Of a DNA stretch of 23,039 nucleotides, positions 3,513-22,228 are shown piece by piece; position 1 is the first letter of the stretch; every line of letters starts with the position of its first letter. The position numbers and the translations under genes are program-made. This DNA is from a virus, in the IMG/VR virus record IMGVR_UViG_3300033149_006550, positions 1 through 23,039 of that record. One strand, given 5' to 3'. The notes beneath the pieces were generated by a model that saw nothing but the letters and a program-made list of their open reading frames with translations, did no database searches and had not been told where the DNA came from.

Positions 3513-5093
3513 ATGATAAATTTTACTTATTTACGACAGCCTCCAAAAAGATATACATTTGAAATGCCTAAATTAAGACAATGGATTGAATTTTGGTGTG
3601 AGGGAAAAGTATTGAATCTTTTTGCTGGGAAAACATTTTTAAATGTTGATGAGGTTAGAGTGGATATTAATGTAGAAATGAATGCAGATTATTATATGGA
3701 TGCTTATTCTTTTGTTAGTATGTGGATACAAGAAAGAAAAGCTAAATTTGGAACGATTATTATGGATCCGCCTTATTGTTATTCAGAAGATACTGATGTT
3801 TTTACTGATAAAGGATGGAAGGAAATAAAAGATATAGTAGATAATAGATTAGATTATAAAGTAGCTACTTTAAATCCGCTTACAAATGAATTAGAGTTTC
3901 ATAATATAATAAATTATTATAAATATAAATATGAAGGAGAAATGATTCATTTTAAACAGAGGAATGTGGAATTAAAGGTCACTCCAAATCATAAATTATG
4001 GTGTAGAAAACAATGGTATACACATAAGTTTAAGTTTACAGAAGCTTCAAGTGTGAGTCAAGGAATCACTTTTCAAAAAAATTGTGGGTGGAAAGGAATT
4101 AATAAAAGATTTTTTCTTTTGCCTAAAGTTGATTTTGTTAGAGCAAATAGATATGGAAAGAAATTTGCAGAAGAAAAAAAGATTGATATGAAAGATTGGT
4201 TGAGATTTTTTGGGATATGGATAGCAGAAGGGTCTTTAGGTAATAAAATCAAAAAGAATAGAAAAATGGCTTCTGAATTTAAAGTTACTATTACACAAAA
4301 AAAAATAGAGAATAGGAAAATAATAGAACGGTGGTTGGATAAACTTCCATTTCACTATTATAAAGATGGAATTGATTATCGTATATGGGATAAACAATTA
4401 TATACTTATTTATTTAAGTTTGGGAAAAGTAAACAAAGATATATTCCAGAAGATATTAAAAATTTAAGTTCTGATTTGTTGGGATATTTAATAGAAGGAT
4501 TAATGTTGGGAGATGGTTGTATATATAAAGAGGAAAAGTGTAAGAATGGTAAAATATATCGGTCTATACGTAAATCTTATTCTACTGCTTCAAAGAGATT
4601 GGCTAATGATTTTAATGAAATTATATTAAAAACTGGTAAATCTTGTACTATTTTTAAACAGGATAAAAATGGAGTATTTAATATTAGTATAATTGGTAGA
4701 AATAATTTTCCGACAATACCAACTATTAGAATGAATTATCAAAAAAAATTATATATGTATAAAGGATTTGTTTATTGTATTGAAGTTCCCAATAATATTT
4801 TATATGTTAGAACTAAAGGAAAAAATCAGAGTGTATGGTGTGGGAATTCAATAAGAAAATCCAGAGAAAAATATGAAGGGAAGTATGTAGGAAATTTAAC
4901 TAAAATTAAAAATGCTTTACCTTCTATATTGAGAGATAAAGGTAGAATTATTAGTTTGGGATATGATAGCGTTGGTATGTCCAAAAGCAGAGGGTTCACA
5001 AAAATAGCTATTTGTTTGATATGTCATGGAGGAGATCATAATGATACTATTGGACTTATAGAACAGAAAGATGAAAGAAGATTTTTTCTATGA
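3513..5093 (+). CDS. DNA methyltransferase with in-frame LAGLIDADG intein
   Basis: A 526-residue precursor. Exteins are residues 1-88 and 446-526, which would splice to about 169 residues. The N-extein carries a Rossmann motif I (VLNLFAGKT, 33-41) and ends in DPPY (85-88), the catalytic motif IV of amino-methyltransferases. The C-extein continues with SIRKSREKYEG and then ISLGYDSVGMSKSRGF, as in small phage DNA adenine methylase-like proteins. The likely reaction is S-adenosylmethionine-dependent methylation of adenine (or N4-cytosine) in DNA; specificity is not readable. The ATG abuts the helicase stop codon, and the 3' end overlaps the next gene by ATGA. Splicing is required for a working enzyme because the intein splits the active site. 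Confidence 0.85.
   Translation: MINFTYLRQPPKRYTFEMPKLRQWIEFWCEGKVLNLFAGKTFLNVDEVRVDINVEMNADYYMDAYSFVSMWIQERKAKFGTIIMDPPYCYSEDTDVFTDKGWKEIKDIVDNRLDYKVATLNPLTNELEFHNIINYYKYKYEGEMIHFKQRNVELKVTPNHKLWCRKQWYTHKFKFTEASSVSQGITFQKNCGWKGINKRFFLLPKVDFVRANRYGKKFAEEKKIDMKDWLRFFGIWIAEGSLGNKIKKNRKMASEFKVTITQKKIENRKIIERWLDKLPFHYYKDGIDYRIWDKQLYTYLFKFGKSKQRYIPEDIKNLSSDLLGYLIEGLMLGDGCIYKEEKCKNGKIYRSIRKSYSTASKRLANDFNEIILKTGKSCTIFKQDKNGVFNISIIGRNNFPTIPTIRMNYQKKLYMYKGFVYCIEVPNNILYVRTKGKNQSVWCGNSIRKSREKYEGKYVGNLTKIKNALPSILRDKGRIISLGYDSVGMSKSRGFTKIAICLICHGGDHNDTIGLIEQKDERRFFL
3777..4847 (+). mobile_element. LAGLIDADG intein inside the methyltransferase
   Basis: A 357-residue intein (precursor residues 89-445). Block A starts with Cys89 (CYSEDTDVFTDKGWKEI). 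Block B is VELKVTPNHKLW, with the usual TxxH. Two LAGLIDADG-type motifs are present, FFGIWIAEGSLG and YLIEGLMLGDGC, both keeping an acidic residue, so the homing endonuclease is probably active. Block F is VYCIEVPNNILYVR, and the end is WCGN followed by Ser446 as the +1 nucleophile. The penultimate residue is Gly rather than His, a form I recall from other phage inteins ending WCGN or WSGN. The insertion sits exactly after DPPY, a conserved active-site position typical of inteins. The element is about twice as long as its host protein. Confidence 0.9.
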
Positions 5094-7428: not shown

Positions 7429-7680
7429 ATGACAGAAAAGAAGAAATCGGGCAGACCTAAAAAACCAGTAGAAAAAAAGGCGAGGCCTATAACAATAGCT
7501 TTATATGAGGAAGATTTAGCAAGGATTAAATTTTTAAAAGGAGTTTGTGATTGTGATTGTACTTCTCTTTTGATAAGATATGCTTTAAGATTAGTTGAAG
7601 AAACTTTTGTAGAGACTGAAATGGAAAAAGCAAAAGAATTTCAAGAAGAAGGAGGGAGGAATTGTGCTTACGATAACTGA
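7429..7680 (+). CDS. ribbon-helix-helix DNA-binding protein with AT-hook-like tail
   Basis: An 83-residue protein. The basic N-terminus KKSGRPKKP looks like an AT-hook (GRP core in basic residues). Residues ~20-58 (ARPITIALYEEDLARIKFL, then TSLLIRYALRLVEE) fit a CopG/Arc-type ribbon-helix-helix domain: one beta strand followed by two helices. ATG 7429 has AAGGAGA just upstream. The gene overlaps the HNH-QueD gene by 17 bases, so the two are likely co-translated. A role as regulator of the modification operon, or as a DNA-architecture protein, is inferred from position. The fold call is moderate because the family is short and diverse. Confidence 0.65.
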   Translation: MTEKKKSGRPKKPVEKKARPITIALYEEDLARIKFLKGVCDCDCTSLLIRYALRLVEETFVETEMEKAKEFQEEGGRNCAYDN

Positions 7681-8749
7681 TGGTAAAACATGTCCTATAT
7701 GTAAGAAAATTTATAAAAATATTATTTTTCATATTAAGAGAAAACATCCTGAATATATGGACAAGATTTATTCTGATATTAATTCTTTTTATGATAGCAA
7801 TTTATATGTTAAAGAAATATATGTTAAATTGATAAAAGATAATCCTGTATATGAGAATATTATTTCTGAATATATGATAAGTAAAATTTATAAACGAAGA
7901 GGAAAATTTAATAGGGAACGAAGTAATAGAATTTTTTCTATTAGAAGAAAAGGGGAAAATAATACAGCAAAAAAGAAAGAAGTTAAGGAAAAAATAAAAA
8001 AAACTGTAACTAATTTATGGAAAGAAGGAAAATATAAAGATAGAATTAATGGTATGTTAGGAAGAAGTAAAGAATTATCTTTGAGATATAAACCAGAAAA
8101 GCATACTCCACTTTATCTTGCAGAACATGATTGTGTAAAATTTCTTTCTAATTTTCAAGATGTAAAGACGTGTAGTAGATGTGGAAGAAAAGATATAAAA
8201 ATGAATATACATCATATTGATGAGGATCATAGTAATTTTCTCATTTCTAATCTGGAGCCGTTATGTGTTCCATGTCATATGAGTTTTCATTATGGACATA
8301 GTAAAAGGGAATATTTGACTATAGTTAAATCTTTTAATCTTGATATTGCTCATTTTCTTCCTACTTCACATTATATAGGTAGATGTAATGCTTTTCATGG
8401 GCATCGACTAAAATGTGAAGTAGGGGTAAAGAAAAGAGTAGATAAAAATACTGGAATGGTATTGGATTTTAAGATTTTAAAAGAAATAATAAATGGGTTT
8501 ATTATAGATTCTTTAGATCATTCATTACTCAATGATTTTTTGGAGAATCCAACTTCTGAAAATCTTTGTGTATGGATGTGGGAAAAATTAATGTTTGATG
8601 CTCTTTTGAAAGGAATAGAATATATAAGAATATGGGAAACAGATTCTTCTTTTACTACTTTAGATAAAGGAGGAATGTTGTCTATGTTTAAAACTAATAT
8701 TGAAGATTATTTATTGAAATTTTCTGAGGATAAAAATGAAAATATCTAG
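7664..8749 (+). CDS. queD: HNH endonuclease fused to QueD (6-carboxytetrahydropterin synthase)
   Basis: A 361-residue multidomain protein, GTG start (GGAGGGAGG just upstream). It opens with a C2H2-like finger (C10, C13, H23, H28). Next comes a NUMOD3-like segment (~95-125, GENNTAKKKEV then LWKEGKY). An HNH domain follows: CSRC (170-173), NIHHID with H183/H184, N196, and CVPCH (201-205). From about 218 the protein is QueD: zinc ligands H230, H245 and H247, catalytic Cys241 in CNAFHGH, GMVLDF (264-269), LDH (284-286), PTSEN (296-300) and E325. QueD converts dihydroneopterin triphosphate to 6-carboxytetrahydropterin, step two of 7-deazaguanine synthesis. All QueD catalytic residues are present, so it should be active. 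The nuclease domains are typical of homing endonucleases, making this an unusual in-frame fusion. It overlaps queE by 14 bases. Confidence 0.87.
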   Translation: MLTITDGKTCPICKKIYKNIIFHIKRKHPEYMDKIYSDINSFYDSNLYVKEIYVKLIKDNPVYENIISEYMISKIYKRRGKFNRERSNRIFSIRRKGENNTAKKKEVKEKIKKTVTNLWKEGKYKDRINGMLGRSKELSLRYKPEKHTPLYLAEHDCVKFLSNFQDVKTCSRCGRKDIKMNIHHIDEDHSNFLISNLEPLCVPCHMSFHYGHSKREYLTIVKSFNLDIAHFLPTSHYIGRCNAFHGHRLKCEVGVKKRVDKNTGMVLDFKILKEIINGFIIDSLDHSLLNDFLENPTSENLCVWMWEKLMFDALLKGIEYIRIWETDSSFTTLDKGGMLSMFKTNIEDYLLKFSEDKNENI

Positions 8750-9395
8750 TATTTATAAAACAATTAGTGGAGAAGTTCCTTACCAAGGGTTTCCTTGTAT
8801 AATAGTAAGATTTTTTGGGTGTAAAAGAAAGTGTAATTATTGTGATTCTAAATTTGCATGGGAAGATTCTTCAAATTCTTGTTATTATGATCCTAGTGGT
8901 ATTTTAGAAGAGGTGCAGAATTTAGATAGAGATAAGAAATGTATTGTTCTGCTTACAGGTGGAGAACCTTTGGAGCAATCTAAAAAAGAGATGTTAAAGT
9001 TGTTTAGATATTTAAGAAAAAGGAAAGTTTTGCTTGAGACAAATGGTTTGGAAGATATTGAATGGGTTCCTGATTATGTTAAAATAGTTATGGATTTAAA
9101 ATTACCTTTTTCGGGATATGATTTTAGACGTACTCCAGTTACAGGTAAAAATTTTAAGAATTTAAAGAAGGAAGATTGGATAAAATTTGTGATTTCAGAT
9201 AGGGAAGAATATTTAATAGCAAAAAATTTCTGTTCTTTTTTGATAGGTAATATTGCTTTTAGTCCGTGTATTCCTTTATTAGAACCTTTTGTTTTGGCTG
9301 AATGGATGTTAGAAGATAATCTTTATGAAATTGTTTATAATTTACAGATTCATAAATTTATTTTTCCAGATTGGAAAGAAAATGAGGAAAGATAA
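8736..9395 (+). CDS. queE: QueE, 7-carboxy-7-deazaguanine synthase (radical SAM)
   Basis: A 219-residue radical S-adenosylmethionine enzyme that contracts 6-carboxytetrahydropterin to 7-carboxy-7-deazaguanine. The 4Fe-4S cluster cysteines are C29, C33 and C36 in GCKRKCNYCDS, a Cx3Cx2C pattern. SGEVPYQGFP precedes it, where QueE has SxQGEG...G, and TGGEP lies at 74-78. The end carries LQIHKF, matching the QueE tail QxHK. Length is normal for the family (~210-245). It starts 14 bases inside the end of the QueD gene with TGAGGA upstream, so the two consecutive pathway steps are translationally coupled. Confidence 0.9.
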   Translation: MKISSIYKTISGEVPYQGFPCIIVRFFGCKRKCNYCDSKFAWEDSSNSCYYDPSGILEEVQNLDRDKKCIVLLTGGEPLEQSKKEMLKLFRYLRKRKVLLETNGLEDIEWVPDYVKIVMDLKLPFSGYDFRRTPVTGKNFKNLKKEDWIKFVISDREEYLIAKNFCSFLIGNIAFSPCIPLLEPFVLAEWMLEDNLYEIVYNLQIHKFIFPDWKENEER

Positions 9396-9400
9396 GATAA

Positions 9401-10006
9401 ATGGCAGTTAGACCAACTATTTATAAATTGAAAAGATATGCAAAATTATTGAAAATTAGCTATGATGAAGATATAGAATATAAAGAATTGGAAAAAAAAG
9501 TATTAGATGCCATTGAAGATTGGGAAGATGTAACTACTTTATCTTATATTTTAATGGCTTATTATAATACTCATCCTTTAGTTTGTGGTGTTGAGTTTGA
9601 AGGTGATGAAGGAATAGGGGATTCACCAGAAGATGTAGAGAGAATTATAGAAAAAGAACAAGATATTGGGAAAGAAATGCTTTCTATAGATAGAAATCTT
9701 TTTATTTCTTTAAGAAAAGCTGAGAGATTAGAAAGAGAAGAAAAGATTAGGAAAAGATTGAAAGGAAAAACTATTTTTGGTCATGGTTTACTTTCTGAGG
9801 GAGGAAGAATAGATGAATTAATATATAAAAGGGGGGTTAGAAGAATTAGTGATTTGATGAGAATAACAGGACTTTCAAGGGAAAGAGTTATGAGACATCT
9901 TCGTCATTTAGCATATAAACATGAGTGTATTATTGAAATAGATAAGGAAGATTTTTTTCCTTACAAGAAGAAAGATAAAATTAAAAATATTAAATTTCCA
10001 TTTTAA
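9401..10006 (+). CDS. unknown protein with C-terminal winged-helix/HTH
   Basis: A 201-residue protein I cannot place in a family. The N-terminal half is helical and acidic, with a charged stretch at ~85-120. Residues ~145-180 (RRISDLMRITGLSRERVMRH followed by LRHLAYKHECIIEID) look like a winged-helix domain of the IclR/Rrf2 or DnaD-like sort, with the recognition helix at GLSRERVMRHL. The Lys-rich tail (KKKDKIKNIKF) could contact DNA. It sits between queE and folE, so it may regulate the modification operon, or guide a modification enzyme to DNA; neither is shown by the sequence. Confidence 0.6.
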   Translation: MAVRPTIYKLKRYAKLLKISYDEDIEYKELEKKVLDAIEDWEDVTTLSYILMAYYNTHPLVCGVEFEGDEGIGDSPEDVERIIEKEQDIGKEMLSIDRNLFISLRKAERLEREEKIRKRLKGKTIFGHGLLSEGGRIDELIYKRGVRRISDLMRITGLSRERVMRHLRHLAYKHECIIEIDKEDFFPYKKKDKIKNIKFPF

Positions 10007-10019
10007 AGGAGGGGATATT

Positions 10020-10565
10020 ATGAAAGAATATTTAAAAAAATGGTTGAGATTTATAGGGGAAGACCCAGAAAGAGAAGGTCTTAAAGATACCCCTCAACGA
10101 ATGATGGACTCATGGAAAGAATTATATGGGGGATATAAAGAGGATCCAAAAGATTTATTTGTAGTATGGGAAGAAGGGAAAGATAGTAGTTTAGTTTTAT
10201 TAAAAAACATTTCTTTTGCGAGTACTTGTGAACACCACTGTATGCCTTTTTTTGGGAAAGCTCATATAGCATATATTCCCAATGGAAGGGTGATTGGGAT
10301 AAGCAAATTAGCTAGGTTATTAAAAATTTATACACGTAGACTTCAGATTCAAGAGAGGATTGGAGAGCAAGTTGTGGGAGATTTAATGAAATATTTGAAA
10401 CCTAAAGGTGCTGCATGTATTCTGGAGGCTACACATTTATGTATGAAAGGAAGAGGAGTTAAAATAGAAAATGCTTCTATGATTACAAGTGCTTTGGGGG
10501 GGTGCTTCCTTGAAGATTTTGCCTGTAGACAGGAGCTAATGATTTTAATTAATGGAGGGAAATAA
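10020..10565 (+). CDS. folE: GTP cyclohydrolase I (FolE)
   Basis: A 181-residue enzyme converting GTP to dihydroneopterin triphosphate, the first step of pterin and 7-deazaguanine synthesis. Zinc ligands are C70 and H73 in TCEHHCMPF and C141 in HLCMKGRGV; catalytic H72 and H139 are also present. IGISKLARL and QIQERIGEQV, both hallmarks of the family, follow. It is a core-length FolE without the N-terminal extension of mammalian enzymes. The ATG has a strong AAAGGAGGGG site. In a phage carrying QueD, QueE and a DpdA homologue, its job is most likely to boost precursor supply for DNA modification rather than folate. Confidence 0.93.
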   Translation: MKEYLKKWLRFIGEDPEREGLKDTPQRMMDSWKELYGGYKEDPKDLFVVWEEGKDSSLVLLKNISFASTCEHHCMPFFGKAHIAYIPNGRVIGISKLARLLKIYTRRLQIQERIGEQVVGDLMKYLKPKGAACILEATHLCMKGRGVKIENASMITSALGGCFLEDFACRQELMILINGGK

Positions 10566-10918
10566 TGAATTTTTATATTAGTAAAAGATTATTAATTATT
10601 ACATCTTCTTTTGTGGCGACTCATTCATGGGACGATGCGGTTGATTTTTTAAAAAATGAGCACAGACATACATTTTATATAAGAGTTGAAATGTTAGTTA
10701 AGCATAATGATAGAGAAAAAGAATTCATAAAGGAAAAAAAGAAATTAGAGTATCATTTAAAGCGAAAATATGAAGGAAAATTTTTAAAAAATATATCATG
10801 TGAGATGATAGCAGAAGAGATTTTGGATCGTTTTTTTTATTATACCGCTGTAGAATGTTGGGAAGATAGAGAAAACGGAGCAAGATTAGAAAAAGAATTT
10901 ACAATGGGAGGGGATTAA
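10565..10918 (+). CDS. QueD-like T-fold protein lacking the catalytic cysteine
   Basis: A 117-residue protein whose pattern matches the PTPS/QueD T-fold. FVATH (H20) and EHRHTFYIRVE (H33, H35) line up with the three zinc histidines of QueD (FxAAH and HGH). ISCEMIAEEI (77-86) lines up with PTSExLAxWI, and ECWEDRENGA (97-106) with the KETxxxG region that holds the pterin-anchoring Glu. Three things are missing: the Cys four residues before HRH, the LDH motif, and the DF before the central helix. So zinc and base binding are plausible but the QueD reaction is not. It overlaps folE by one base and precedes the glycosyltransferase, inside the deazaguanine cluster. I infer a reshaped active site working on CDG or a related base. 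The fold call is by eye and needs a structure prediction. Confidence 0.6.
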   Translation: MNFYISKRLLIITSSFVATHSWDDAVDFLKNEHRHTFYIRVEMLVKHNDREKEFIKEKKKLEYHLKRKYEGKFLKNISCEMIAEEILDRFFYYTAVECWEDRENGARLEKEFTMGGD

Positions 10919-10919
10919 A

Positions 10920-11927
10920 ATGATTATTTGGGGTTTGGAATTGGAACCACTTGAAATGAGGTATACAACACAACATGCAAAATGGATAAAAGAAGGGATG
11001 TGTAATAGTTTTATGCAATATTTTCCTATAAAAGGGGAAATATTAACAGAAAGTATAGAAGTAGGAGAATTTTTAGATGTTTTAGGAACTAATTATTGGA
11101 AAGCGAGTCAGCTTCAAAGAGTTATATCTTATATTGAAAATAAGACAATAATAAAAGGAGATATTTTATTTTTATTTGATATTTGGAATCCTGCTGTTAT
11201 TTCATTGGCTTATATACGAGATGCAATGGGAATTGATTTGAAATTTGTAGGTATGTGTCATGATGGGACATATGATGAATGGGATTTTACTACTCGTTGT
11301 GGGATGGAAGCATGGGGGGAAGCATTTGAAAATTCTATATTTTGGATTATGGATAAGATTTTTGTTGGAAGCCATTATCATAAAGAGTTGATTTGTAAAA
11401 AAAGATGTGTAAATCCAGATAAAATTATCGTAACTAGTTGGCCTTTTTTTCAAGAAGATCCTTTGGGAACACCAACAAAAAAGGAAAATATAGTTATATT
11501 TCCACATAGGTTGAATCCAGATAAAGCCCCAGAGAAATTTGATGAATTGGAAAGAAAATATAAAAAATCTAATTGGAAATTTATAAAAACACAAAATTTA
11601 GGATTAAGTAAGAAAGATTATTATGAATTATTAAATAAATCTAAAATAGCTGTTTCTTTTTCAAAGTTGGAATGCTTTGGTATAAGTATGAGAGAAGCTG
11701 TTTTAGCTGGATGTCTTCCTTTAGTTCCTAATAGATTGGCTTATTCTGAAACTTTCCCAACTTTATTTCAATATAAGGGAATAGATGATTTTTATGAGAA
11801 GATAGATCTCTTTATGAATAGTGATGGTTTTTATCAAACTGTTTTAGAGAATTTAAAAAAGAAGATATTGGAAAAAGGAAAGAAAGCTATTCCTTATATG
11901 ATTAAGGAGATTTTAAATATTGAATAA
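10920..11927 (+). CDS. GT4-type glycosyltransferase, queuosine-mannosyltransferase-like
   Basis: A 335-residue GT-B glycosyltransferase. The C-terminal half carries the GT4 EX7E signature ECFGISMRE (E251 and E259), which contacts the nucleotide-sugar donor. Around it, IFPHR (193-197), DKAPEKF (201-207), SKKDYYELL (230-238) and CLPLVPNRLAYSETFP resemble what I recall of tRNA-queuosine mannosyltransferase (QTMAN/GTDC1): PHRxxxDKxPExF, a DYFxxL segment and GCxPLxPxxLxYPExFP. The N-terminal half (MIIWGLELEPLE, then DILFLFDIWNP) fits an acceptor domain. There is no signal peptide or membrane helix, so it acts in the cytoplasm. It lies between the T-fold gene and the dpdA-like gene, suggesting the acceptor is a modified base or DNA; that is inference. 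A generic GT4 enzyme for a virion or host sugar is the alternative. Confidence 0.72.
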   Translation: MIIWGLELEPLEMRYTTQHAKWIKEGMCNSFMQYFPIKGEILTESIEVGEFLDVLGTNYWKASQLQRVISYIENKTIIKGDILFLFDIWNPAVISLAYIRDAMGIDLKFVGMCHDGTYDEWDFTTRCGMEAWGEAFENSIFWIMDKIFVGSHYHKELICKKRCVNPDKIIVTSWPFFQEDPLGTPTKKENIVIFPHRLNPDKAPEKFDELERKYKKSNWKFIKTQNLGLSKKDYYELLNKSKIAVSFSKLECFGISMREAVLAGCLPLVPNRLAYSETFPTLFQYKGIDDFYEKIDLFMNSDGFYQTVLENLKKKILEKGKKAIPYMIKEILNIE

Positions 11928-13074
11928 AGTTAATATAATGCTCGATAGTGGGGCACATTCTTATAGTAAACGTTTTTTTACCGTAGGAGCTTCGGATAAA
12001 TCACAATATGAATCATATGGGGTTGATATTCCTAAAGATTGGTCTTATGTTGATTCTGATGAATTTAAACACTATTTAAATGATTATATAGAATTTTGTA
12101 ATATTTTTAAAAATAAATTAGATTCTTATGTTTCTCTGGATATAATATATAATCCACAAAAGAGCTATGAAATTCAAAAGTATATGGAATCTTGTGGGTT
12201 AAATCCTCTACCAGTTTTTCATTATGGAGAGGATATTTCATGGCTAATAAAATATATGGAAGAAGGATATGCCTATATAGGAATATCTGGAGTGGGGCAA
12301 GGTATTTCTAAAACAGCGTACATAAAAAATTATGGAGATGAACTTTTTCAGATTGTATGCCCCCCTCCTCTTTATTTACCTTTGATTAAAACTCATGCTT
12401 TTTCAATTAATAATTGGGATGTAATAAATCGTTATCCTCTTTATAGTTGTGATGCAGTAACATCAGCAAGAACGAGTGGATTTGGTACTATTTTTTTTCC
12501 TAAATATGAAAAAGGTAATTGGAATTATTTAAAGTCCAAGAGGATTATGGTTTCTCTTTTGGCATTAAAAAGAGGGGGTATTCATTTTAAGAGATTGTCT
12601 GAAAAGGAACAAGGATTAATGAAGGAATTATTAACGAAAGAGGGATTTGAAATAGGAGAAAGTAAAATAGAAAATGGTAAAGAGATTTGTGTTAAAGAAG
12701 GGATTTGTAGTAGCTGTTATCAAAGGGATAGATGGAATGCTTTGGTATTCAATCGTGTAAGTAAGGTTCTTCCTTTTTGGAATCGTCAATGTGTTATAAA
12801 AAATAAACAATTTTTCTTTAAAGAAAACTTGACAAATATAAAGAATTTCTCTATATTAGAGAACAATAGGACTAAGTTGTACCTTTCACATTGGGCTGCA
12901 AATTATTTTAGTACTATATTTTATGAAATGGGAATTGAGAATAGACTTGTTTCTTATTTTTATATGAGATTTCAAGAAAAGTTAAATCAAGAAGAATGTA
13001 TATGTTTTATGAAGGAGTATTTAGAAAAAGGATATGTATCTTCTAAAAAAGAAAGGAGAAAAGATGATAAATAG
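11920..13074 (+). CDS. dpdA: DpdA-family DNA 7-deazaguanine transglycosylase
   Basis: A 384-residue member of the tRNA-guanine transglycosylase superfamily, DpdA-like. MLDSGAHS (D9) fits the TGT DSGGFQ acid/base Asp, YIGISGVG (119-126) the base-binding GG loop, and HAFSINN (from H159) with CDAVTSAR (177-184) the second-half HxxG and nucleophile region, D178 being the likely nucleophile. GICSSC (C263, C266) with C257 may be a reduced zinc site. DpdA enzymes replace guanine in DNA by a 7-deazaguanine base. The TTG at 11920 is chosen because AAGGAG lies at 11904-11909; the next ATG (11938) has no spaced site and would begin right at the active-site loop. It overlaps the glycosyltransferase by 8 bases and the clamp by 11. 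A tRNA substrate is possible but less likely given the operon. Confidence 0.78.
   Translation: MNKVNIMLDSGAHSYSKRFFTVGASDKSQYESYGVDIPKDWSYVDSDEFKHYLNDYIEFCNIFKNKLDSYVSLDIIYNPQKSYEIQKYMESCGLNPLPVFHYGEDISWLIKYMEEGYAYIGISGVGQGISKTAYIKNYGDELFQIVCPPPLYLPLIKTHAFSINNWDVINRYPLYSCDAVTSARTSGFGTIFFPKYEKGNWNYLKSKRIMVSLLALKRGGIHFKRLSEKEQGLMKELLTKEGFEIGESKIENGKEICVKEGICSSCYQRDRWNALVFNRVSKVLPFWNRQCVIKNKQFFFKENLTNIKNFSILENNRTKLYLSHWAANYFSTIFYEMGIENRLVSYFYMRFQEKLNQEECICFMKEYLEKGYVSSKKERRKDDK
12829..12857 (+). promoter_or_regulatory. internal promoter inside dpdA reading into the clamp gene
   Basis: TTGACA at 12829-12834, a 17-base spacer, then TATATT at 12852-12857. It lies within the dpdA-like coding region, about 205 bases before the clamp ATG. 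The fit to the housekeeping consensus equals the other two promoters here. It would let clamp and polymerase be expressed apart from the modification genes. Chance occurrence in A+T-rich DNA is possible, but the full -35, exact spacing and near-perfect -10 argue for use. Confidence 0.65.
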
Positions 13075-14086
13075 AGAACAATTATTGAATGTTTTATCAG
13101 AATTAAAGCCAGGGTTATCATCTAATGAAATAATTTCACAAATGGGGCATTTTATCTTTGATAAAAATACTATAACTACTTATAATGATTGTGTTTCTGT
13201 AACTCGTAATTTTGATACAGGATTACAATGTTCTATAGATGCCTCCGATTTTATGAGTTTAATTGAGCGTTTAAAAGGAGATGAATTAGAGTTAAAACAA
13301 GATAAAGATAATTTAATTTTAACTTCTGGAAAAACAAAGGCTATTTTTAAAACAAGTACAGAGAATTTTATTGAGGATAGAATTGATATTCTTAAAAGTT
13401 ATTGTGAAGAAATTGTTTATAAAGAAATATCTCCTTTTTTTATAGAAGGTATTGAATTGTGTTATTTTTCTACTGCTTCAAGAGCAGGAAAGGAATATTT
13501 GACTACAATATTAATAGATGGAAAGTCTATAATTGCTACTGATGATTATAGAGTTTCTTGGTATGAAATGCCTGATTTTATATGGGAAGGGAAAATAATT
13601 ATACCTTCTTCTTATGTTAAAGATATTTTAAAAGGAAACTATCATTTTTATGGTATAAATAATGGATGGTTAATTTTAAATAAAGATGAAGGAAGTTTTT
13701 TTTGCAGATTAAAAGAAGTTGATTGGCCTGATACTAAACAAATAAAAGAATGGTTTAATGGTGAAAATGGGATTCAGATTACTTTACCTAAAGAATTAAA
13801 AGAAGTCATAGGTAGGGCAGAAATTTTTTCAGAAGGGTTTATTGATTTAGATAGAGAATTGCACTTGATTTTTTCGCAAGAAGGTTTAGTAGTTGAAAGT
13901 GAAAAGAAAGGATATGGGAAATTTTATGAGAAGGTTACTGAGGAAATATTATGTGATAAAGAGTTAGATGTTATATTTAGTCCAAAAATATTAAGAGATA
14001 TTTTGAATGTTACTTTTGATGTAATTATAACTGAAAATTTGGCTATTTTTTATAAAGATAAATTTAAATATGTTGTTTTAATTTAA
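13064..14086 (+). CDS. DNA polymerase sliding clamp, beta (DnaN)-like
   Basis: A 340-residue protein with the layout of a bacterial-type beta clamp: repeated strand-helix units, CSIDASDFMSLIERLKGDEL and ILTSGKTKAIFKT in the first domain, and IIATDDYRVSWYEMP, equivalent to the DnaN segment VATDGHRLA. It would ring DNA and tether the polymerase. It is a little shorter than DnaN (~366). ATG 13064 follows AAAGGAGA with six-base spacing and overlaps the dpdA-like gene by 11 bases. The clamp loader ATPase at 17186 is its partner. Identification rests on overall pattern and the TDDYR motif, so divergence is substantial. Confidence 0.8.
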   Translation: MINREQLLNVLSELKPGLSSNEIISQMGHFIFDKNTITTYNDCVSVTRNFDTGLQCSIDASDFMSLIERLKGDELELKQDKDNLILTSGKTKAIFKTSTENFIEDRIDILKSYCEEIVYKEISPFFIEGIELCYFSTASRAGKEYLTTILIDGKSIIATDDYRVSWYEMPDFIWEGKIIIPSSYVKDILKGNYHFYGINNGWLILNKDEGSFFCRLKEVDWPDTKQIKEWFNGENGIQITLPKELKEVIGRAEIFSEGFIDLDRELHLIFSQEGLVVESEKKGYGKFYEKVTEEILCDKELDVIFSPKILRDILNVTFDVIITENLAIFYKDKFKYVVLI

Positions 14087-14095
14087 GAGGGGCAT

Positions 14096-14443
14096 ATGTT
14101 TACTCAAACTCATGGGGCATGGGGAGAAAGGTTAAGAACATTTAGTTGGGATGGGGGAATTGTAACTCTTTTATTTTTAAAAGCTAATACTAGATGTTCT
14201 TGGCATTCTCATTCTAAAACTTGGAATAGATTTATTTGTGTAGCGGGGAGAATAGGTATTAAAACCGATAAAGGTTATTTAACTGAATTGCTTCCTAAGC
14301 AAATGTTTGAGGTAGAACCAGGAATTATACATGAATTTCAAGTTTATGAAGATAGTATTGTAGAAGAAATTGCATATACAAAATATTGTGAAGAAGATAT
14401 TTTTAGATTTAATAAAGGAGGGGTTTTGAATGTTATTGATTAA
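14096..14443 (+). CDS. cupin protein, phosphomannose-isomerase-like
   Basis: A 115-residue single-domain cupin. Motif 1 is SWHSHSKTWNRFICVAGRIG (metal ligands H37 and H39), motif 2 PGIIHEFQV (His 81). The end, EEIAYTKYCEEDIFRF, resembles the EVQxGxxxxEDDIVRF end of type II phosphomannose isomerase cupins, but no nucleotidyltransferase domain is present. A sugar-phosphate isomerase or metal-binding role is possible; substrate is unknown. Its ribosome site GAGGGG is only three bases from the ATG. It sits between clamp and polymerase genes, where metabolic genes are unexpected. Confidence 0.72.
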   Translation: MFTQTHGAWGERLRTFSWDGGIVTLLFLKANTRCSWHSHSKTWNRFICVAGRIGIKTDKGYLTELLPKQMFEVEPGIIHEFQVYEDSIVEEIAYTKYCEEDIFRFNKGGVLNVID

Positions 14444-14652: not shown

Positions 14653-15891
14653 TTGGAAAGAAAGAGGGGGTTTTTTCATAAAAGAGAGGAAGTTATTGTT
14701 CGTAAGAAAAAAGGAATTGGGTGTGAATTTTGTCCTTTAAATGGAAAATCAAATAGACTTGAACCATATGGATTGGGAAAGAAAAAAGTTCTTATTTGGG
14801 GGGAGTGTCCTGGAAAAACGGAGGATATGAAAAAAACCCCTTTTTGTGGGGAATGTGGTTCTTATTTTCGTAGTCTTTTTCATGATTTAGATTTTTATGA
14901 GGATTGTATTGTGGTAAATACTGTGGATTGTAGACCTTGGGAAGGAACTATATATAAAAAAAGGAATAGAAAACCTACTAATAAAGAAATAGAATGTTGT
15001 TTTAAAAGGAAAAAAGATATTCTTAAAAAGGAAAAACCTAAATTTATTTTATTAGTAGGGGGGGTTGCTTTAAGTACTTTTTTAAAATATAAATTTAAGG
15101 AAAGAGGAGGATTAAATACTAATATATCTTCATGGAGAGGTAAATTAATTCCAGACCAAGAATTAAGAGCGTGGGTAATTCCTATATATCATCCAAGTTT
15201 TATTTTTCCTAGAGGAACAATTGGAGCAGAGCCATTTTTAAAAGATGATTTACGAAAGTTTGAATATATAGTTAATATGGAGAGACCTCCTAAGCCTATA
15301 GCAAAATGGAATATTAATTGGAGTACTAATATTGATGTAATAATAAATGAGATTGAAAAAATAGATAGCTCTTTTTGTTTTGATTATGAAACTTCTTGTC
15401 TTTCCCCAAAAAGGAAAGAGGATATAATATACGTTGTTTCTTTTTCAATAGATGGAAAATATGCTTTTGTTTTTCCTCTTGATAAAACAGATAAGGGAAA
15501 ACCATATTTTAATGAAAGGCAAAAAAGACAAATCAAAGAAGTATGGAAAAATAAATTGGAAGATAGTAATCTTCCAAAAGAAGCATGGAATATGAAATTT
15601 GAGAATAAATGGTCGAATCATATTGGAATTAAAGTTAATAATTGGGATTGGGATGGAATGATAGGGGCTCATATTTTGGATTCTTCTCATGGGACTAAAT
15701 CATTGAAAATTCAGGCATATATTAATTATGGAATAATATATGGGGAAGATATTTCTTCATATATGGGAATGTCCAGAGGAAAAAATAGAATGGATAACCT
15801 TTCTTTAGAAAAAATATGTACTTATTGTGGAATGGATAGTATTTTTACTAAAAGAATAAATAATAAACAAAAAAGGATTTTTTGTGTATGA
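14653..15891 (+). CDS. UDG-like plus 3'-5' exonuclease part of family A DNA polymerase
   Basis: A 412-residue protein with two domains. Residues ~20-215 are a uracil-DNA-glycosylase-superfamily domain (family 4-like): CEFC (24-27), GECPGKTEDMKKTPFCG (50-66), DCRPWEG (C93), C115/C116 and HPS (180-182). The cysteines could hold a 4Fe-4S cluster. Residues ~235-412 are a DEDDy proofreading exonuclease: Exo I DYET (244-247), Exo II NMKFE (323-327) where Asp is usual, and Exo III YCGMD (401-405). SPO1-type phage polymerases carry a similar UDG-like domain fused to exo and pol. Here the protein stops at the exo/pol boundary and the pol domain is the next gene, overlapping by ATGA. TTG 14653 follows AAAGGA by about nine bases. 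Confidence 0.85.
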   Translation: MERKRGFFHKREEVIVRKKKGIGCEFCPLNGKSNRLEPYGLGKKKVLIWGECPGKTEDMKKTPFCGECGSYFRSLFHDLDFYEDCIVVNTVDCRPWEGTIYKKRNRKPTNKEIECCFKRKKDILKKEKPKFILLVGGVALSTFLKYKFKERGGLNTNISSWRGKLIPDQELRAWVIPIYHPSFIFPRGTIGAEPFLKDDLRKFEYIVNMERPPKPIAKWNINWSTNIDVIINEIEKIDSSFCFDYETSCLSPKRKEDIIYVVSFSIDGKYAFVFPLDKTDKGKPYFNERQKRQIKEVWKNKLEDSNLPKEAWNMKFENKWSNHIGIKVNNWDWDGMIGAHILDSSHGTKSLKIQAYINYGIIYGEDISSYMGMSRGKNRMDNLSLEKICTYCGMDSIFTKRINNKQKRIFCV

Positions 15892-17135
15892 ATTCTTTAA
15901 AGGATGCATATCAATTATTTCATGATGGGGTTCTTGCTCTTTCTACTATGGAAGATAGGGGTATTTGTATAGATGTTCCATTGTTGTATCAAATGGAGAA
16001 AGAATGTAATGAAGGGATAATAAGATTAAATAGAGAAATCCGAGATACAAAAGAAGCTAAATTATTTGAAAAAATTAATAGAAAAAGAATAGATGTAAAT
16101 TCAGATAAGGATTTATATTCTCTTTTATATGATGTTCTTAAAATGCCTGTTATTAAAACAACAGATAAGGGAAATTATTCTATTGATGCTTATGTATTAG
16201 GAGAATATTCTAAAGATGGGGTGGAAATTGCTGAAAAGATTATGGAATTAAGAAAGATAGAAAAAACTAAAAATACTTATCTTGCTCAAATAAAAAGGTA
16301 TATATATAAGGGAAAGGTTCATCCAGAATTTCATTTACATTTTGTTGTTACCTACAGATCATCCTCTTCCTCGCCAAATCTGCAAAATATTCCCAAGAGA
16401 GATGAAGAGATGGGAAAAATTAGAAGATTATTTATACCAACTGAAGGAAATATTTTGGGATCTGTAGATTATGGGGGGATAGAAGTTAGAGTAATAGCTT
16501 GCTTATCAAAAGATTCAGTTTTATGTGAAGAATTATGGAATGGGGATGATATTCATGGGGTATGGGCTAATATGTTATTCAATGTTGATGATTCCCATCC
16601 AGATTGGAAATCTAAATTTAGATACAATGCAAAAAATAAATTTGTATTTCCTTTATTTTATGGAAGTTATTATAAATCTTGTGCATTAAATCTTAATTTA
16701 CCAATTAGGCATGTCCAAAAGTGTGAAAAGGAATTTTGGAATAAATATAAGGGAGTGAAGAAATGGATAGATAATTCTTTGTCTAATTATCAACAAAATG
16801 GTTATGTTAATTATCCATTTGGGTTTTGTAGAAGAGGGTATATTGACAGAAATCAAATAATAAATACGCCAGTTCAAGGGACTGCTTTTCATATGCTTTT
16901 ATGGTCAATTGTTCAAGAATATAAAACTTGTAAATGGGAAAATAGTTGGGCTATAGGAGAGATTCATGATGAAATTATATTTGATATTAATCCAAAAGAA
17001 AAAAATAAATTAGAAAAGGAAGTTTCTTCTATCATGTGTGATAAAATTAGAGAGGAAAATCCTTGGATTATAGTGCCATTAATTGTTGAATGGGAGTTTG
17101 GAAAAAATTTAGGAGAAATGAAAGAAAACACTTGA
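15888..17135 (+). CDS. family A DNA polymerase, polymerase domain
   Basis: 415 residues holding thumb, fingers and palm. Motif A is DYGGIEVR (184-191), in place of DYSQIELR. Motif B is RYNAKNKFVFPLFYG (245-259), with R245, K249 and Y258-G259 but one residue longer than the E. coli Pol I O-helix spacing. Motif C is HDE (360-362). SSSSPNLQNIP precedes motif A, as in Pol I. With the upstream UDG/exo gene it forms a complete replicative polymerase in two chains. ATG 15888 overlaps the previous stop; AGGA lies at 15874-15877. The reading frame is open a little further upstream, in the -1 frame relative to the first gene. Confidence 0.92.
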   Translation: MNSLKDAYQLFHDGVLALSTMEDRGICIDVPLLYQMEKECNEGIIRLNREIRDTKEAKLFEKINRKRIDVNSDKDLYSLLYDVLKMPVIKTTDKGNYSIDAYVLGEYSKDGVEIAEKIMELRKIEKTKNTYLAQIKRYIYKGKVHPEFHLHFVVTYRSSSSSPNLQNIPKRDEEMGKIRRLFIPTEGNILGSVDYGGIEVRVIACLSKDSVLCEELWNGDDIHGVWANMLFNVDDSHPDWKSKFRYNAKNKFVFPLFYGSYYKSCALNLNLPIRHVQKCEKEFWNKYKGVKKWIDNSLSNYQQNGYVNYPFGFCRRGYIDRNQIINTPVQGTAFHMLLWSIVQEYKTCKWENSWAIGEIHDEIIFDINPKEKNKLEKEVSSIMCDKIREENPWIIVPLIVEWEFGKNLGEMKENT

Positions 17136-21856: not shown

Positions 21857-21905
21857 CAAAAGAGATAATGTATAATCATGCGTTTTAAATTTAAAGGGGC
21901 TAAAA
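21857..21905 (+). promoter_or_regulatory. duplicated promoter-like element, copy 2, with start of next gene
   Basis: The second copy of the 49-base unit. TATAAT at 21871-21876 is preceded by AATG and followed by CATGCG. The likely transcript start near 21883 leaves a short leader with AAAGGGG and the ATG at 21905. The usual -35 is missing, so a phage-specific factor or activator may be needed. The 250 bases from 21655 to 21904 hold no other supported gene. Confidence 0.55.
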
Positions 21906-22228
21906 TGAAGGTAATTTTTATATCTGGTCCTTATCGTGGTTATGGTATATGGCCTTTATCATGGGTACGAAGACAAACCAATATTAGACGTGCTAGAAAA
22001 GTTGCCTTAAAATATTGGGAAAAAGGTTATGTTGTAATATGTCCTCATTTAAATACAATGAATTTTGATGGAATTTGTGAGGATGAAATATGGCTTAGGG
22101 GAGATATAGAAATATTGAATCGTTGCGATGAAATTGTAATGATGAAAAATTGGAAAAAATCTGTAGGAGCAATTCAGGAATATAAAACCGCAATTCAACA
22201 AGGAATATTTATACGGATGGATAGATGA
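21905..22228 (+). CDS. DUF4406 / nucleoside 2-deoxyribosyltransferase-like protein
   Basis: 107 residues. FISGPYRG (5-12) is the phosphate/ribose loop signature, VICPHLNTMNFDG (44-56) the middle motif, D67 and D75 conserved acidic sites, and WKKSVGAIQEYKTA (83-96) the segment bearing the catalytic-type Glu (E92). Relatives cleave or exchange the base of deoxynucleosides or nucleotides. ATG 21905 is preferred over ATG 21878: the latter lies inside the promoter element, directly after TATAAT, and AAAGGGG sits before 21905. Stop overlaps the next start by ATGA. The fold call is good; the substrate is unknown. Confidence 0.75.
   Translation: MKVIFISGPYRGYGIWPLSWVRRQTNIRRARKVALKYWEKGYVVICPHLNTMNFDGICEDEIWLRGDIEILNRCDEIVMMKNWKKSVGAIQEYKTAIQQGIFIRMDR

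Follow-up and report, generated by a model that had tools for sequence, protein, structure and literature searches.

The DNA analyzed here, IMG/VR virus record IMGVR_UViG_3300033149_006550 (called the window; the whole record, a linear fragment of 23,039 bases with 28% GC), carries a cluster of eight open reading frames (ORFs) at positions 7429–13074. With a probability of roughly 60%, we read it as a phage 7-deazaguanine DNA-modification operon that is QueC-less and bears a glycosyltransferase, in which a T-fold protein would act on 7-carboxy-7-deazaguanine (CDG) and the glycosyltransferase would modify the inserted base. From gene content and comparative genomics we infer glycosylated 7-deazaguanine in the phage DNA; a base not yet described, as had been suggested from sequence alone, is plausible for such a glycosylated product. 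All eight ORFs were confirmed at the coordinates given in that sequence-only reading. They lie on the + strand and are overlapping or closely packed.

In the proposed pathway, FolE, QueD and QueE, whose key residues are present, would convert GTP to CDG by the established route. The T-fold protein would remove the carboxylate to give 7-deazaguanine (or would generate another QueC-independent base), and DpdA, judging from its family membership, would exchange guanine for the modified base in replicating phage DNA. The glycosyltransferase, of the GT4 type, would add a sugar from a host nucleotide-sugar, most simply onto the inserted base, and the glycosylated 7-deazaguanine would shield phage DNA from restriction. 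We give slightly better than even odds to this being a widespread phage pathway in which a QueD-derived T-fold protein stands in for QueC and the sugar, possibly galactose, is added by a dedicated GT4 enzyme, often accompanied by a GalE-like epimerase that would supply the donor. The gene set turns up across numerous unrelated phages, in more than 360 IMG/VR stretches and, among isolates, in phages of Acidovorax, Pseudomonas, Xanthomonas, Sinorhizobium and Synechococcus, and a sugar-coated guanine analogue may be common in phage DNA. If true, this would have consequences for restriction, CRISPR and virome sequencing bias.

The genes that underlie this reading, with the sliding clamp gene that follows them, are:

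7664..8308, + strand: HNH endonuclease domain, probably homing-type, N-terminal part of the QueD ORF (HNH Pfam E 2.9e-4; PHROG HNH families)
8315..8749, + strand: QueD (6-carboxytetrahydropterin synthase) domain, continuing the reading frame of the HNH domain (PTPS Pfam E 2.7e-27; TIGR03367 E 2e-24)
8736..9395, + strand: QueE, radical SAM CDG synthase (phrog_2076 E 1e-27; TIGR04349 E 6e-36; PDB QueE 5tgs and 6nhl)
10020..10565, + strand: FolE, GTP cyclohydrolase I (Pfam E 1.9e-63; solved homologues down to E 1e-46; NCBIfam folE above cut-off)
10565..10918, + strand: T-fold protein, 117 amino acids (phrog_17812 E 2e-18, a family of unknown function; no Pfam or NCBIfam name)
10920..11927, + strand: GT4-type retaining glycosyltransferase, 335 amino acids (Pfam PF00534 at E 2.5e-5, narrowly missing the cut-off)
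11920..13074, + strand: DpdA-type DNA guanine transglycosylase of the phrog_887 group, TTG start (phrog_887 E 1e-30)
13034..14086, + strand: sliding clamp, directly after DpdA (phrog_947 E 2e-30)

The deazaguanine core enzymes and QueC

QueD, QueE and FolE align with solved homologues at their catalytic residues. In QueD, the Zn-binding His triad, the Cys nucleophile and the Asp-His motif align to 2oba and 4ntm, while QueE resembles solved QueE proteins and has its CX3CX2C motif at residues 29–36. These alignments and the Pfam, PHROG and NCBIfam matches bear out the route from GTP to CDG that had been predicted from key residues. The QueD ORF is a fusion, as the PTPS match spans residues 219–334 of 361 amino acids and the first 215 residues hold the HNH endonuclease; the earlier QueD assignment was confirmed, but the HNH domain had been omitted. 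A strong GGAGG-type site precedes the GTG at 7664 that starts the fused ORF, and a TTG at 8315, behind AAAAGGGA, is a candidate internal start that could serve QueD alone. Chryseobacterium phage MA9V-3 (L004, 7452–8333) encodes an endonuclease VII-like protein fused to a T-fold protein. Thus, endonuclease genes have been joined to deazaguanine genes at least twice.

No PF06508 match for QueC or Gat-QueC was found across the entire 23,039-base record, which bears out the earlier observation that the window lacks QueC, and this gene content supports the view that preQ0 is not the expected product. QueC was also not found in the relatives L018, L053 and L056 (contigs of 56–82 kb). Whole-record Pfam searches, complete genomes of T-fold phages included, gave no QueC in six T-fold phage isolates, two IMG/VR records, three of four glycosyltransferase-bearing phages, or 44/50 glycosyltransferase-bearing contigs; the fourth phage, X1, gave a weak match and the other six contigs only weak, partial PF06508 matches. 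The matches in X1 and in these six jumbo contigs (17–27 bits in the contigs, all partial) lie far from the clusters and resemble other PP-loop ATPases, and they were set aside.

The call of a DpdA-type transglycosylase at the end of the cluster is upheld by its phrog_887 match, conserved Asp residues and DSGA motif; the protein keeps Asp74, His101, His159 and Asp178. By tblastn it matched 167 phage records, among them dG+ phage 9g and CAjan relatives, while a single-protein scan with this DpdA, too divergent a query, gave no match. Its gene overlaps that of the sliding clamp, which adjoins DpdA in 9g and is a short distance from it in both GottfriedDienst and L018, providing a context for replication-linked modification. 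This arrangement bears on whether the genes serve instead to raise tRNA queuosine, with the DpdA-like protein acting on tRNA. FolE, QueD and QueE are common to both pathways and DpdA is a distant relative of tRNA-guanine transglycosylase. However, the window protein falls into one group (phrog_887) with DpdA proteins from phages whose DNA is proven to contain deazaguanines, its gene overlaps the clamp gene, QueC is missing from the record, and QueF, QueA and QueG were not recognized among the window ORFs. A tRNA function is so improbable, given the missing QueC and the DpdA group, that we reject it.

The T-fold protein and its relation to QueC

The AlphaFold2 (AF2) model of the T-fold protein (pLDDT 91.8, pTM 0.84) has E. 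coli QueD as its best Foldseek match (TM-score 0.80, E 3e-6). Ten residues are strictly invariant across 47 diverged sequences: H20, L29, H33, H35, F37, R50, E53, S78, E80 and E100. By alignment, H20, H33 and H35 match the Zn-binding His triad of QueD, and E100 matches the Glu that anchors its pterin, whereas the invariant L29 occupies the position of the QueD nucleophile and the Asp-His pair is gone. The protein had been described as Cys-less; it does lack the QueD catalytic Cys, but Cys79, within an SCE motif (S78-C79-E80), is kept in 46/47 aligned sequences, so that description does not hold. R50, E53, S78-C79-E80 and E100 are family-specific, and a near-invariant Arg34 stands beside the Zn ligands in sequence. 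Because the Zn triad is kept while the QueD nucleophile and Asp-His pair are lost, the protein is a Zn T-fold enzyme other than QueD. These features, with the invariant Arg50, might be those of a carboxylate-binding enzyme.

Genes of this family lie beside FolE, QueD, QueE or DpdA genes in the isolated phages Cellulophaga phiST, Rhizobium RHph_I1_18, Chryseobacterium MA9V-3, Vibrio Bakedbeans and Synechococcus BUCT-ZZ01. Faecalibacterium phage Roos (L003, 7989–9857) has the T-fold gene directly before DpdA, followed by a Vut_1/YhhQ-type transporter gene, with FolE, QueD and QueE all missing from the vicinity; this could be a salvage form of the system. When IMG/VR was scanned with T-fold queries taken only from phages without the glycosyltransferase, at least one of FolE, QueE, QueD and DpdA was present in 78 of the 80 loci and DpdA in 75/80, with QueC in 0/80. 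Conversely, QueC-queried phage loci contained DpdA in 86/93 cases and the T-fold gene in 0/93, and 68 of 79 DpdA-queried loci held QueC and none the T-fold gene. On sets reduced to 70% nonredundancy, T-fold occurrence stood at 34/38 versus 0/57 (Fisher p = 1e-21). The result is a genomic rule for predicting the deazaguanine of a phage: in no locus examined did T-fold and QueC occur together.

Since the two are alternatives, the T-fold protein can be placed at the step after QueE, and the mutual exclusion indicates that it most likely takes the place of QueC and acts on CDG. This pattern is hard to reconcile with a highly improbable account in which host QueC completes preQ0, DpdA inserts preQ0, and the T-fold protein is left as a degenerate paralogue of QueD that does not matter for catalysis. 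Many bacteria encode QueC, and a phage DpdA can use host preQ0, as 9g DpdA alone yielded dPreQ0 in E. coli (PMC6884629). A dead paralogue, however, would not be expected to retain ten strictly invariant residues across such diverged sequences or to be mutually exclusive with phage QueC.

Our preferred assignment, that the T-fold protein replaces QueC, makes it probably a CDG decarboxylase. Decarboxylation is favored as the simplest CDG reaction that yields a DpdA substrate, and carboxylate removal would be analogous to the side-chain C–C cleavage performed by its relative QueD. Cui et al. in 2023 reportedly described such a decarboxylase from phages, DpdL, together with the base dDG. The T-fold protein may be DpdL itself; its occurrence with DpdA where QueC is missing agrees with that identity.

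The glycosyltransferase and its genomic associations

The AF2 model of the glycosyltransferase (pLDDT 93.2, pTM 0.91) has a GT-B fold with structural matches to the retaining GT4 enzymes MshA and BshA, and the protein keeps the EX7E glutamates E251 and E259 and the donor-binding R197 and K202. Where relatives occur in phage isolates (Acidovorax ACP17, the Pseudomonas PA5oct group, Sinorhizobium Phosso, Xanthomonas X1 and Synechococcus BUCT-ZZ01), each is embedded in a FolE/QueE cluster that has a T-fold gene, annotated as hypothetical; more distant GT4 matches (PhiXhv-12 group, E 1e-8) do not lie within FolE/QueE/T-fold clusters. An IMG/VR scan with the glycosyltransferase alignment alone found at least 366 relatives. 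Among the best 80 loci, for which context was counted, the T-fold gene was present in 69, FolE in 68, DpdA of several subfamilies in 68, QueE in 64 and QueC in 0. The window order QueD-QueE-FolE-T-fold-glycosyltransferase-DpdA is shared by 8 + 4 other IMG/VR loci, so the cluster is not a singular arrangement, and loci of this type range from 31 to 71% GC. A gene for an NAD-dependent NDP-sugar epimerase (GalE-like in L058) lies near the glycosyltransferase in 40 loci, within 2.5 kb in 39 and usually directly downstream, and 13 loci carry a UDP-glucose dehydrogenase gene. Both would be expected if the glycosyltransferase uses a dedicated nucleotide sugar.

How closely the glycosyltransferase is bound to the deazaguanine bears on an alternative that we regard as unlikely yet deserving of some weight, namely that FolE, QueD, QueE, a DpdL-type T-fold protein and DpdA yield plain dDG (or dCDG) as the final base, while the glycosyltransferase only co-travels and has a target elsewhere, such as a different base, a protein of the virion or a glycan of the host. 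Such other targets are common for phage glycosyltransferases, and a T-fold gene with DpdA and without the glycosyltransferase forms a complete module in many loci (37/80 of the T-fold-queried set; phiST, Roos and MA9V-3). The gene also occurs in a QueC-containing cluster (L110). Yet this glycosyltransferase subfamily is almost confined to such deazaguanine clusters, across phages that differ in DpdA subfamily and, for the window-type loci, in GC content (31–71%). Its presence also tracks the DpdA subfamily: 0/20 for DpdA3-like loci, 21/21 and 59/59 for two others and 30/51 for the group of the window, in a table drawn partly from glycosyltransferase-queried loci, the T-fold-queried set alone giving an equal pattern. 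Moreover, besides a DNA methyltransferase, no other base-hypermodification genes were recognized in the window.

Several points weigh against the proposal that the glycosyltransferase modifies the T-fold product. In L057/L058 and L075 the glycosyltransferase is found without a T-fold gene in the available DNA, and in L110 it stands together with QueC and a radical SAM gene; it is thus not strictly bound to the T-fold product. No sugar-nucleotide gene was found in the window. As the record is a linear fragment, the absence of QueC from the full phage genome is unproven and a distant QueC is possible. The support consists of gene content, family assignments, folds, conservation and statistics of co-occurrence and exclusion, from which the chemistry itself is inferred. 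Finally, 7-deazaguanine has only carbon at C7 and offers no obvious O or N acceptor there, leaving C-glycosylation, another acceptor atom, a T-fold product other than 7-deazaguanine, or action of the glycosyltransferase elsewhere. Were C7 the acceptor, the product would be a C-glycosylated DNA base.

In an alternative that we consider improbable, the T-fold protein would prepare the CDG carboxyl rather than remove it and the glycosyltransferase would form a glycosyl ester or glycosylated derivative of CDG, with the carboxylate as the handle. Carboxylates are known as handles for hypermodification, as in carboxymethylcytosine (PMC12783734). The invariant Arg50 and the near-invariant Arg34 next to the Zn ligands would fit such a role, as would L057/L058, which lack QueC as well as the T-fold gene. 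The many loci with a T-fold gene and no glycosyltransferase, however, imply that the T-fold protein makes a usable base by itself, and acyl glycosides are rarely formed by GT4 enzymes.

Among the genes that accompany the glycosyltransferase, related radical SAM-like proteins are encoded in L056 (8635–9558, between T-fold and glycosyltransferase) and L110 (1819–3114, next to the glycosyltransferase), where they could be an extra tailoring enzyme of some clusters; as an essential part the gene was discounted, being absent from the window and too rare among the loci. Genes for phosphoribosyltransferase (in 44 loci) and for IMP dehydrogenase (in 15) also accompany these modules (L048, L006, L013 and others) and may salvage the guanine released by DpdA.

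Setting of the operon and comparison with known systems

Essentially all genes of the window lie on the + strand. The GC skew averages ~+0.4 over positions 1–23039 and is 0.08 in the first kilobase only. Promoter and terminator scans gave nothing above chance. The remaining two ORFs of the cluster are:

7429..7680, + strand: 83-residue basic protein, ribbon-helix-helix-like by eye, a probable small regulator or DNA-binding protein (ORF only; weakly supported)
9401..10006, + strand: 201-residue protein with a weak winged-helix C-terminus, a probable regulator or DNA-binding accessory (HTH_5 E 0.006)

The first has no significant Pfam, PHROG or NCBIfam match, leaving the ribbon-helix-helix call weak and without profile support. 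The winged-helix call is likewise weak by its HTH_5 score but gains from a helix-turn-helix protein at the equivalent place, between QueE and FolE, in L018. Four genes had been singled out as unexplained by the core pathway; comparative genomics ties the T-fold and GT4 genes to it, whereas these two are not tied to the chemistry.

A replication set flanks the cluster and includes a DnaD-like loader, a DnaB-like helicase, a further helicase, a primase, the sliding clamp, a uracil-DNA glycosylase (UDG)-exonuclease, a family A polymerase, a clamp loader, a UvsX-like recombinase and RusA. The family A polymerase is divided between two ORFs, 14653–15891 (UDG and 3'-5' exonuclease) and 15882–17135 (polymerase domain), and ORFs similar to the former occur in L018 and L056. 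In the DNA methyltransferase ORF (3513–5093), a LAGLIDADG-bearing intein (PF14528, Intein_splicing) interrupts the protein just after the DPPY catalytic motif. Positions 21878–22228 encode a DUF4406/DUF7768 protein, from a family that resembles nucleoside deoxyribosyltransferases. A cupin-like protein (14096–14443; phrog_7851, cysteine dioxygenase-like) has relatives in 11 glycosyltransferase-bearing jumbo-phage loci, and Cellulophaga phiST has a cupin near QueD. We set the window cupin aside as a part of the chemistry because its relatives lie 3.5–8.8 kb away and only in similar jumbo-phage loci.

The DpdA framework and QueC-less phages were already known (PMC6884629). Enterobacteria phage 9g (dG+) and CAjan/Rosebush (dPreQ0) (Hutinet 2019, PMC6884629) likewise group FolE, QueD, QueE and a DpdA of the phrog_887 type into a single operon close to the sliding clamp gene; they contain QueC or Gat-QueC, in place of which the window has the T-fold protein and GT4 enzyme. 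The QueC-less Mycobacterium phage Bipper (PMC6884629) shares DpdA-QueD-QueE-FolE, but has neither the T-fold nor the glycosyltransferase gene. The Cellulophaga phiST group has QueD-QueE-FolE-T-fold and a DpdA-like gene, with no glycosyltransferase and another DpdA subfamily. DpdL would catalyze the step proposed for the T-fold protein; we know of no DpdL paired with a glycosyltransferase.

In the 7-deazaguanine DNA bases known from phages, the substituents are small (carboxyl, amide, nitrile, aminomethyl and similar). The literature searched, which excluded subscription papers and some Nucleic Acids Research and American Society for Microbiology papers, yielded no description of phage DNA with a glycosylated deazaguanine. 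The tRNA queuosine glycosyltransferases QTMAN, a GT4 enzyme, and QTGAL also act on a 7-deazaguanine nucleoside in nucleic acid, but use the cyclopentenediol of queuosine, which is absent here; against the QTMAN/QTGAL family models the window glycosyltransferase gave no specific match, only generic glycosyltransferase models. No T4 glucosyltransferase was among the Foldseek top 50 for its structural model. The T4 alpha- and beta-glucosyltransferases similarly glycosylate a modified phage DNA base as a shield, although their target is 5-hydroxymethylcytosine. A sugar on a guanine analogue, if confirmed, would be the guanine counterpart of the glucosyl-hydroxymethylcytosine of T4.

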